This document shows positions 8,968 to 19,718 of a stretch of DNA of 64,000 nucleotides, one piece after another. The notes beneath the pieces are model-generated. The model was not told the DNA's origin. It worked only from the letters and a program-made list of their open reading frames with translations, and searched no databases. Position numbers and translations under genes: made by a program. Position 1 is the stretch's first letter, and every line of letters starts with the position of its first letter. This DNA comes from Thermoplasmatota archaeon (GTDB lineage: Archaea; Thermoplasmatota; Thermoplasmata; UBA10834), in contig JAHIRF010000006.1 in the NCBI GenBank assembly GCA_018818785.1, positions 124,001-188,000 of the forward strand, given 5' to 3'.

Positions 8968-9080
8968 TGGTCCCGACTCCCGGATTTGAACCGGGGACCT
9001 GCTGATATCAGCGACTGAAATCGGTCGTACCGATATCCATACTACAGTCAGCCGCTCTAGCCAGTCTGAGCTAAGTCGGG
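8968..9080 (-). tRNA. tRNA-Tyr (GUA) with an intron of about 35 nt
   Basis: Read on the minus strand, the acceptor stem starts CCCGACT at 9080 and pairs with AGTCGGG at the 3' end. The TTCAAAT T-loop is present, and the CCA end is encoded at 8968-8970. The anticodon GTA (9045-9043) is followed after one base by an intron, about 9041-9007, that splits the loop at the usual 37/38 site. Intron bases CAGTC can pair with exon bases GACTG, as expected of a bulge-helix-bulge recognised by the splicing endonuclease. Removing the intron leaves a normal tRNA of 75 nt before CCA. Confidence 0.95.
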
Positions 9081-10599: not shown

Positions 10600-11381
10600 A
10601 GCTCTTCCTTCCTCTTGAAAGATGCAGTCCCGCCAGATTTCTCAATCTCCGACGAGATGCTGTCGATCGAGTGCTTCAACGCACTCTCGGCCAATTTGTA
10701 ATCCTCAGCGGTGACGGTGACCTTGTACTTTGGAGCGCCCAGATATAGGATGTCGATCTCGGCGCCATCGAATTGCAGACCGGACATCAACGCAGTCCTG
10801 AGATGGTCGACCCCGTCGGGGGCTGGTGTTGATATCTCGAGAGTGCCGTCGATCGTGACCGAGGGCAGCTGTATGTTCTCATTCGAGATTTCGACGAGGG
10901 CAGTGATCCAGTCCTTGGCGATCCCGAGGTCCTCCAGCACAGAGGGATCTGCGGCGGTCGCCTCGAATGAACCGTACACGGTGCCGAACTCAGATATCAG
11001 AGTCTCACCCACCTCATCATAGGCCTCATCGATCGTCTTCCCGAGTTTTGCGCTGACGATCTCCAGGAGTTTCTCCGCCTTATTCTCGTTCTTGCGCTCC
11101 TGGATCTTCTCCCTGCGTTGGTGATCGTTGACTTGCTTGAGTGACAGGTCTATGTGTCCGCGTTCCTGATCCACACCGAGAACCTTGCACACGACCTTCT
11201 GGCCTTCTCTGACGTGGTCTCGGATGTATTTGACCCAGCCAGTGGCTACATCTCTGACGTGAATAAAACCCTCTTTGCCCTCGAACTCGTCGAGGGTGAC
11301 GAAAGCGCCGAAATTCTTGACGTTCTTCACGCTGCAGATGACTAGATCGCTCACTTCTGGAAATTCTACCTTTCGTGGCAT
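10596..11381 (-). CDS. Translation initiation factor aIF2, alpha subunit
   Basis: This 261-residue protein is the alpha subunit of the aIF2 heterotrimer that brings initiator tRNA to the ribosome. It has an N-terminal S1/OB domain (VICSVKNVKNFGAFVTLDEF, residues 15-35), a helical middle domain, and the C-terminal alpha-beta domain (KVTVTAEDYKLAE). The ATG at 11381 shares one base with the S27e stop (TAATG), showing tight coupling. Frame-open sequence further upstream only shadows S27e. Confidence 0.95.
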   Translation of the reverse strand: MPRKVEFPEVSDLVICSVKNVKNFGAFVTLDEFEGKEGFIHVRDVATGWVKYIRDHVREGQKVVCKVLGVDQERGHIDLSLKQVNDHQRREKIQERKNENKAEKLLEIVSAKLGKTIDEAYDEVGETLISEFGTVYGSFEATAADPSVLEDLGIAKDWITALVEISNENIQLPSVTIDGTLEISTPAPDGVDHLRTALMSGLQFDGAEIDILYLGAPKYKVTVTAEDYKLAESALKHSIDSISSEIEKSGGTASFKRKEEL

Positions 11382-11566
11382 TAATGGACCTCTCCGAGCA
11401 GCTGCCCCCTGATCAGGCCTTTCCCTCCGGTGGGCTTGATCAGCGTGGCACCGCACACATTGCACTTGACATGTGTCGCGGGCTTGTTGAAAGCGATTTG
11501 CTCGTTGCCGCAATCTTGGCACTTGACATTGATGAACTTGCTCGTTGGAGCTGGGATCTCGTTCAA
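11381..11566 (-). CDS. rps27e: Ribosomal protein S27e
   Basis: This is a 61-residue zinc-ribbon protein of the small subunit. It has [13 protein letters not shown] and [18 protein letters not shown], the four cysteines binding one zinc. It starts with TTG at 11566, supported by a strong AGGAGGT seven bases upstream that lies in the end of L44e. It precedes aIF2-alpha as in most euryarchaea. Confidence 0.96.
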
Positions 11567-18384: not shown

Positions 18385-18461
18385 TGGTGGGGTAGGTCGG
18401 ATTTGAACCGACGACCTCATGCTCCCAAAGCACGAATCATACCAAGCTAAACCACTACCCC
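18385..18461 (-). tRNA. tRNA-Pro (UGG)
   Basis: On the minus strand the acceptor GGGGTAG (from 18461) pairs with CTACCCC. The anticodon stem CGTGC/GCATG encloses TTTGGGA with anticodon TGG, and the TTCAAAT T-loop is present. CCA is encoded at 18387-18385. There is no intron. Confidence 0.96.
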
Positions 18462-18515: not shown

Positions 18516-19076
18516 TCATGGCCGGCCTATTAGTTTCGGCAACTCCTCGATGAACTTGGCCATCGCCCTGCCTCTATGGGAAATGGTATTCTTCTCCGCG
18601 ACATCTATCTCCGCGTATGTCCTGGTATCGCCTTCATGGATGAATATGGGGTCGTACCCGAAACCGCCAGTCCCGACCATCTTCTCGGATATCGATCCGG
18701 TGGCTACGCCTTTTGTTATCAACGGCTCTCCACCAGGCTCCATGTATCCGATACAGCACTCGAACCTCGCAGTCCTGTCGCTCACTTCTCTCATGAGGTT
18801 CAAGATGCCCTTGCAGCCAACAGTCTTGAAAACATAAGACGAATACACTCCGGGGAAGCCTCGGAGGGCATCTACGAACAGGCCGGAGTCGTCTATCATC
18901 ACGGGTCGGTCGAACTTGGATATCAGCCACTGTAGACCAGGGATTATGGTTATCTCCAGTGATTCGGCCTGGATCTCAGGATACGGGGTTTTGAGGTGGT
19001 CCAACTCGTAGCCGTGAGATGCCATCTGAGCGGATATCTCCTTGAACTTGCCATTGTTGCTGGTTGCGAACGCTAT
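18516..19076 (-). CDS. XTP/dITP pyrophosphatase (HAM1/RdgB) without an ordinary start codon
   Basis: The enzyme hydrolyses non-canonical XTP and dITP to cleanse nucleotide pools. The conserved N-terminal motif FATSNNGKFKE, then EIQAESLE, VMIDDSGLFVDAL, GFGYDPIF and SHRGRAMAKF are all readable in one frame. That frame extends upstream of the first ATG (19025), and without the extension the SNNGK motif would be lost. No ATG, GTG or TTG exists in frame between this motif and the preceding in-frame stop. The first plausible initiation codon is ATA at 19076, overlapping the Bud32 stop (ATAG); about 186 residues result. Alternatively a -1 slip on AAAA at the end of Bud32 would fuse the two products. 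A sequencing error is also possible. Confidence 0.88.
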   Translation of the reverse strand: MAFATSNNGKFKEISAQMASHGYELDHLKTPYPEIQAESLEITIIPGLQWLISKFDRPVMIDDSGLFVDALRGFPGVYSSYVFKTVGCKGILNLMREVSDRTARFECCIGYMEPGGEPLITKGVATGSISEKMVGTGGFGYDPIFIHEGDTRTYAEIDVAEKNTISHRGRAMAKFIEELPKLIGRP

Positions 19077-19696
19077 TCTTTTCGTGTGTACCGCCCCCGC
19101 CTCTCTATCTCCTTCACCTTTTTGAGGACTTCGTCCCCGCGCTCATAATGGTGGACATAAGACGCCTTGACCACGTCGAATAGCTCGGCTCGCGAGTGAT
19201 GTGCTGAATGGAATGCTTCCTCGAGGAGGTGCATGTCCACGCCCTTGTCCTCAATCTCCGAGGTCTTGGAACCGAGTGAGAAATCGATCATGACAATCCT
19301 ATCCCCTTCGAGAAGCATGTTGCTGGTCGTCAGGTCACCGTGTACGACATCATGTGCATGAAGCATGGCCGATATCTCGCCGATCTTCTCGCATATCTCA
19401 CGAGCACGGGGATATGGCAGATCCTGAAGGGCGTCCTTGACCCTGACACCTTTGATCTCCTCCATGATTATCCTATTACCAGCCAGGTCTATCGAGTATA
19501 TGATCGGGACCGCTATGCCGCCCTTCCTGGCCTCAAGCATGAGACGGGCCTCGTTCTTGATCCGTGAGGTCTGCAGGTTCTTGTCGATCACTGGGTGTCT
19601 GTATCCCTTGACCACTCTCTGCTTGATGACGACTTCGCGATCCATCCAAGTATCGGAGTCTAGACGCGCTTCCGCACCGACCCTGTGAACTGACAC
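19073..19696 (-). CDS. bud32: KEOPS complex kinase/ATPase Bud32
   Basis: This small protein kinase-like ATPase of the KEOPS complex helps make the t6A tRNA modification. Visible motifs are the VVIKQRVVKGYRHP Lys segment near residue 28, IIMEEIKGVRVKDAL, the catalytic VVHGDLTTSNMLLE and the metal-binding MIDFSLG. In many archaea it is fused to Kae1; here it stands alone and Kae1 is not in the window. GTG at 19696 is preferred over ATG 19714 because it lies 27 bp from a TATA box and gives a family-like start MSVHRVGAEARL. It leads directly into the XTP pyrophosphatase. Confidence 0.93.
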   Translation of the reverse strand: MSVHRVGAEARLDSDTWMDREVVIKQRVVKGYRHPVIDKNLQTSRIKNEARLMLEARKGGIAVPIIYSIDLAGNRIIMEEIKGVRVKDALQDLPYPRAREICEKIGEISAMLHAHDVVHGDLTTSNMLLEGDRIVMIDFSLGSKTSEIEDKGVDMHLLEEAFHSAHHSRAELFDVVKASYVHHYERGDEVLKKVKEIERRGRYTRKE

Positions 19697-19718
19697 ACTA
19701 ACTTGCAGAGCCATTCGT

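Follow-up and report, generated by a model that had tools for sequence, protein, structure and literature searches.

An XTP pyrophosphatase gene without a canonical start codon points to ACG initiation in a family of Thermoplasmata-class archaea

Where does translation of a gene begin when its frame offers no recognizable start codon ahead of its conserved N-terminus? The question is raised by a gene for XTP/dITP pyrophosphatase (XTPase) that follows, and overlaps, the gene for the KEOPS kinase/ATPase Bud32 in the window, the whole 64,000-nucleotide stretch of DNA considered here.

The junction between bud32 and the XTPase gene

The identities of the two proteins are firm. The XTPase exceeds the cut-offs of NF011396 (3.7e-64, 215.7 bits; cut-off 203), TIGR00042 (8.8e-53, 178.4 bits; 145.35) and Pfam PF01725 (1.5e-49, 168.9 bits; 22.5). 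The RdgB/HAM1 profile match includes the N-terminal T-S-N-x-G-K motif, with the alignment beginning at residue 3-4, and the alignment to PH1917 from the PDB begins at PH1917 residue 2.

The XTPase frame, which lies on the minus strand, contains no ATG, GTG or TTG between the upstream in-frame TGA and its first ATG (19025-19023), and the FATSNNGKFKE motif of the enzyme lies upstream of that ATG. The original prediction had described exactly this and had placed an ATA (19076-19074) across the Bud32 TAG stop; the frame and the coordinates were both confirmed. It was also right that something unusual is needed at this start, although the likeliest start codon, an ACG, was overlooked. Read from the stop, the frame is TGA GCG CGG GGA CGA AGT CCT CAA AAA GGT GAA GGA GAT AGA GAG GCG GGG GCG GTA CAC ACG AAA AGA ATA GCG TTC GCA ACC AGC AAC AAT GGC AAG TTC AAG GAG. 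The candidate ACG lies in this frame four codons upstream of a GCG codon, 20 codons after the TGA and 20 codons before the first ATG, and would give a protein that reads M-K-R-I-AFATSNN. The N-terminal peptides expected from an ACG-started XTPase are MKRIAFATSNNGK or KRIAFATSNNGK.

The bud32 frame ends TAC ACA CGA AAA GAA TAG, with the stop at 19075-19073 and a C-terminus of ...RGRYTRKE*, and overlaps the XTPase gene by 13 nt. Within this end of bud32 lies a run of five G residues, the proposed Shine-Dalgarno sequence, whose predicted pairing with the 3' end of the 16S rRNA, ...GGATCACCTCC, includes one G-U. Elsewhere in the window, ARAGORN places at 8968-9052(-) a tRNA whose anticodon it could not resolve; this tRNA may contain an intron or be a doubtful call.

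Table 1. Positions of the features at the XTPase locus (window coordinates) and of the other genes discussed (genome and contig coordinates)
Feature	Position	Strand	Remark
XTP/dITP pyrophosphatase (RdgB/HAM1)	18516..19085	-	189 aa if ACG-started; profile matches
Candidate XTPase start codon ACG	19083..19085	-	ACG/GCG at site in 18/18 family copies; class relatives ATG, TTG, GTG or CTG
GGGGG, proposed Shine-Dalgarno	19094..19098	-	8 nt before ACG, inside bud32 end; in every coupled genome
Bud32 (KEOPS kinase/ATPase)	19073..19714	-	TIGR03724 3.6e-65, 219.1 bits (cut-off 125)
ATA overlapping Bud32 TAG	19074..19076	-	GTA in G007, ATG in moved G011 copy; judged internal Ile codon
AAAA, originally predicted -1 slip site	19079..19082	-	CAAA, GAAA, AAAG in relatives
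tRNA-Pro (TGG)	18385..18461	-	Downstream neighbor of XTPase; ARAGORN
MCM helicase	G000 C12:60096-62309	-	ACG-or-ATG/GTG start in family
~115-aa protein	G005 C1:392560-393000	-	Conserved, no Pfam family
Response regulator	G000 C11:30772-31167	-	Only plausible start ATA or ATC
Initiator tRNA	G000 C3:18252-18327	-	A1-U72, CAU, A29-U41

Conservation of the proposed start site and relocated copies of the gene

The junction was compared across 19 genomes of the family. XTPase was found in 18 of these, and the start region was covered in 17, giving 18 copies. The start column holds ACG in 15 copies and GCG in three (G006, G015 and one of two G018 contigs), with ATG, GTG or TTG in none. The G018 metagenome bin probably mixes two strains, since it contains both a GCG and an ACG form of the junction. 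All 15 family genomes that retain the gene pair have the start-less junction, which is more than chance would give. In these coupled copies no canonical codon occurs from the stop to the motif, with one exception 103 codons upstream, inside bud32 (G008).

A one-base sequencing error had been offered as the plain alternative, and most of the family genomes are indeed metagenome assemblies. However, the same junction recurs in 15 independent genomes whose XTPase proteins are only 65-76% identical, so a shared recent error does not account for it, and three of these genomes (G005, G007 and G016) are single-contig assemblies, which excludes the sequencing error. The substitutions are of the coding type and the family profile is intact; an assembly artifact or a pseudogene can thus be given a negligible chance.

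In class relatives that share the gene order, the homologous site is occupied by ATG, TTG, GTG or CTG, mostly in an NTGA overlap with the Bud32 stop. Within the family, the Bud32 ending RGRYTRKE* is identical in the 15 coupled genomes. One caution applies to the start column itself: Bud32 needs the CG of NCG for an arginine codon (CGN), so that the constancy of NCG where the two genes are coupled does not count as separate evidence for an ACG start.

Two genomes, G011 and G013, in which the XTPase gene lies about 5 kb from bud32, separate the two constraints. The moved copies retain ACG behind new Shine-Dalgarno sequences, GGAGG-7 nt-ACG in one and GGGGTG-7 nt-ACG in the other. Their leaders, AAGGAGGCCTCTCG-ACG and GCGGGGTGTCAGTCC-ACG, each have their own putative TATA-like box and Shine-Dalgarno sequence, and the 30 nt upstream of the gene are only 27% identical, against 74% for the genes. 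In G011 an in-frame ATG does occur, but it falls after the TATA-like box and ahead of the point where the transcript should begin, and so probably does not serve as a start.

The uncoupled bud32 genes have changed in a complementary way. They read CGC GGA CGC TAC ATG CGC or CGC GGC AGA TAC ATG CGC, with GGGGG replaced by GCGGACG or GCGGCAG and the ACR codon lost as well, whereas the coupled genomes all retain the bud32 GGG and AC[AG] codons. In the codon usage, GGG makes up 20% of glycine codons and ACA plus ACG 50% of threonine codons. That bud32 loses GGGGG and ACR exactly where the XTPase gene has moved argues that these bases serve the XTPase in the coupled genomes. The RKE extension of Bud32 is kept in G011 and G013 too, with threonine changed to methionine (RYMRKE*), and this three-residue tail may matter for Bud32 itself.

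The moved copies also bear on the two mechanisms proposed originally. The first was a start at AUA, reached by termination-reinitiation of the Bud32 ribosome at UAG. This is possible: the AUA lies directly at the Bud32 stop codon, ATA occurs in 16 of the 18 XTPase copies, and a response regulator of the same family seems to use AUA or AUC. Its presence is, however, to be expected, since the TA is set by the TAG stop and ATA accounts for 36% of isoleucine codons. The triplet is GTA in G007 and ATG in the moved G011 copy; the Shine-Dalgarno spacing in the window would be 17 nt, against 8 nt for the ACG; and the moved copies have no upstream gene for reinitiation, with their Shine-Dalgarno sequences 16 nt from ATA/ATG and 7 nt from ACG. 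A start at AUA would also drop residues before the first beta strand that are found in all relatives. Overall, we consider an AUA start unlikely.

The second was a -1 slip at CGA-AAA, yielding a Bud32-XTPase fusion. The two frames do overlap in the right phase, and besides A-AAA a second possible site, G-GGG (Bud32 codons AGG GGG), is kept in all coupled genomes. The A-AAA run, in contrast, varies (CGC AAA, CGG AAA and CGA AAG occur). In G011 and G013 the XTPase gene stands without bud32 upstream, so the downstream gene does not depend on the upstream frame, and GGGGG disappears from bud32 once the XTPase gene leaves and reappears as a Shine-Dalgarno sequence before it. Nor would a frameshift serve the start-less MCM helicase and other genes described below, which lack an in-frame upstream partner; six of the MCM copies have a stop just before the start. 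Frameshifting at the end of bud32 is therefore highly improbable.

Other genes with apparent non-canonical starts and the initiator tRNA

Non-canonical starts in other genes were called from a directed scan combined with family checks. The survey covered 459 orthologue pairs (1.57 Mb of G000 versus 0.64 Mb of G005), and three candidates were then checked family-wide. A codon-blind scan that relied on the conservation boundary and the Shine-Dalgarno sequence was abandoned for its poor precision, as its calls frequently missed by one codon.

For the MCM helicase, the proposed start codon is ACG in nine, ATG in five and GTG in three of 17 copies, always after a G-rich Shine-Dalgarno sequence; GGGGGG precedes the ACG by 5-6 nt. 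Six of the ACG copies have an in-frame stop directly before the ACG and do not meet an ATG, GTG or TTG until 10-75 codons later, beyond the conserved N-terminus. G015 has the same preceding stop, followed by ATG. If ACG-started, the helicase is expected to yield the N-terminal peptide MPKEYTPEDL or PKEYTPEDL. A similar exchange is seen in the conserved protein of ~115 aa, which has ACG in seven and ATG in six genomes; two of the ACG copies also have a GTG three codons upstream. The response regulator has ATA in ten and ATC in nine of 19 genomes, after GGAGG. The stretch that follows lacks a canonical codon over as many as 44 codons, and several genomes have a stop 7-10 codons upstream; in three of them the first canonical codon is at +44 and the stop at -10. 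Just after the proposed starts of these genes, codon differences fall mainly at third positions.

Several other start-less candidates from the scan were rejected on finding an adjacent ATG or TTG, as was HdrA (G000 C11:73996), which has an upstream ATG. CTG seems to be the start of two or three more genes, two of them after GGAGGT (G000 C12:189051-189695(+) and C4:117310-117966(-)). A PP-loop protein of G000 (C12:147374) has a candidate ACG start.

Reassignment of ACG to methionine was rejected, as ACG makes up 31% of threonine codons and encodes threonine inside the same genes. C-to-U RNA editing would convert ACG to AUG and GCG to GUG and so give back the XTPase start as well as a Bud32 UGA stop, in the manner of chloroplast ACG starts. 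It accounts for ACG together with GCG, and for the swapping of ACG, ATG and GTG in MCM, but leaves the AUA/AUC starts unexplained. The retained RKE codons, by which Bud32 extends past its lost stop to the new one, suggest, moreover, that the unedited frame is translated, and we know of no C-to-U editing of mRNA in archaea. Editing thus seems as remote a prospect as frameshifting.

A candidate cause was found in the initiator tRNA (A1-U72, CAU). Its anticodon stem, UCAGG/CCUGA, has A-U at pair 29-41, with the other two G-C pairs kept. This A29-U41 pair is present in all 19 initiator tRNAs read from the order (17 family and two sister-family genomes), while all 11 outgroup genomes read, from eight other families, have G29-C41 and keep three G-C pairs. 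Among 389 sampled genomes of the phylum, the exact A29-U41 variant occurs in two, both of the same family as G000. The pairs G29-C41, G30-C40 and G31-C39 are listed as initiator tRNA features in all domains (PMC6412873, PMC7949028), and in E. coli 16S rRNA G1338 docks on the initiator pair 29-41 and A1339 on 30-40 (PMC11497404). Loss of aIF1 was rejected as a cause, as SUI1 is present and ordinary. In the 16S rRNA of G000 (near 11247-11560(-)), the equivalent of A1340 of the archaeal model and E. coli is a U, beside the bases that grip the P-site tRNA (numbering by our own count). The correlation makes the initiator tRNA a good and plausible suspect for the relaxed starts. Against it, the sister family shares A29-U41, yet TTG is the start of the only XTPase that could be read there.

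Proposed origin of the ACG start and relation to known systems

Taken together, the comparisons favor, with a probability of roughly three in four, translation of the XTPase from ACG, or from GCG in three relatives, at a site set by a Shine-Dalgarno sequence, in a lineage with relaxed start-codon discrimination, plausibly through the A29-U41 tRNA. The ancestor probably had the NTGA overlap that outgroups still have, with the Bud32 TGA stop lying over the NTG start. A single T-to-C transition, NTGA to NCGA, would have removed the Bud32 stop and the XTPase start together. Bud32 would then have run three codons on (RKE) to TAG, with XTPase initiation staying put: the GGGGG 8 nt upstream would place the ribosome at ACG, where it would start with methionine. 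Loss of the NTG start may have been tolerated because discrimination in this lineage is relaxed, which would also give ACG in MCM and the ~115-aa protein and AUA/AUC in the response regulator, with A29-U41 in place of G-C as the plausible cause. The GCG of three genomes sits less easily with this proposal, since GCG performs poorly as a start in all known systems.

A broader possibility, which we hold tentatively and judge somewhat more doubtful than probable, is that this whole order of Thermoplasmata-class archaea has relaxed start decoding through a natural A29-U41 initiator tRNA, with ACG, AUA and AUC as ordinary starts, essential genes included, and with gene callers truncating or missing genes. 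Since the t6A37 modification of the initiator tRNA is made by the complex to which Bud32 belongs, one may speculate that start choice responds to KEOPS activity.

Among known systems, the closest are bacterial near-cognate starts. The AUU of infC and pcnB and the rare CUG starts depend on a Shine-Dalgarno sequence, lie one base off AUG and are conserved among relatives, and the proposed archaeal ACG start resembles them in all three respects. However, the bacterial codons mismatch at position 1 or 3, whereas the archaeal ACG mismatches at position 2, occurs in several unrelated genes and swaps with ATG and GTG among orthologues. Chloroplast, viral and eukaryotic ACG starts share the start triplet proposed for the family XTPase. 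Chloroplast ACG is usually edited to AUG and the eukaryotic cases depend on scanning; unlike these, the proposed ACG starts of the family are archaeal, led by a Shine-Dalgarno sequence and accompanied by AUA/AUC.

To our knowledge, ACG serves only as an internal threonine codon in nearly all life, and we know of no standard gene caller, nor NCBI table 11, that takes it as a start in archaea. Our literature search found no report of ACG starts in archaea. Archaeal ACG starts would be a new form of non-AUG initiation, one well supported by the comparison of related genes. If conserved genes of the lineage, MCM and XTPase among them, do start at ACG, the annotation of N-termini in these genomes is systematically wrong. 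A large study of prokaryotic start switches, which covered 36 genome groups and 61,358 ancestral AUG starts, reported changes only to GUG, UUG, CUG and AUU (PMC5622118).

Termination-reinitiation coupling of overlapping genes is known in archaea (PMC10666635). In the outgroups the Bud32-XTPase junction carries NTGA, like ATGA (-4 nt) coupled pairs, whereas in the family it is NCGA with an overlap of 13 nt.

The proposed role of the tRNA has its counterpart in the E. coli 3GC variants. A change of one anticodon-stem pair in the initiator (variant M1, C30-G40) lowers discrimination against CUG in vitro (PMC11497404), and the 3GC pairs set initiator selectivity in the archaeal pre-initiation complex (PMC6237735). 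Compared with these variants, A29-U41 is natural, fixed in an archaeal order and coincident with ACG, AUA and AUC starts. If the relation holds, nature itself would offer a test of how the anticodon stem of the initiator tRNA governs start choice, a link that so far comes from laboratory mutants.
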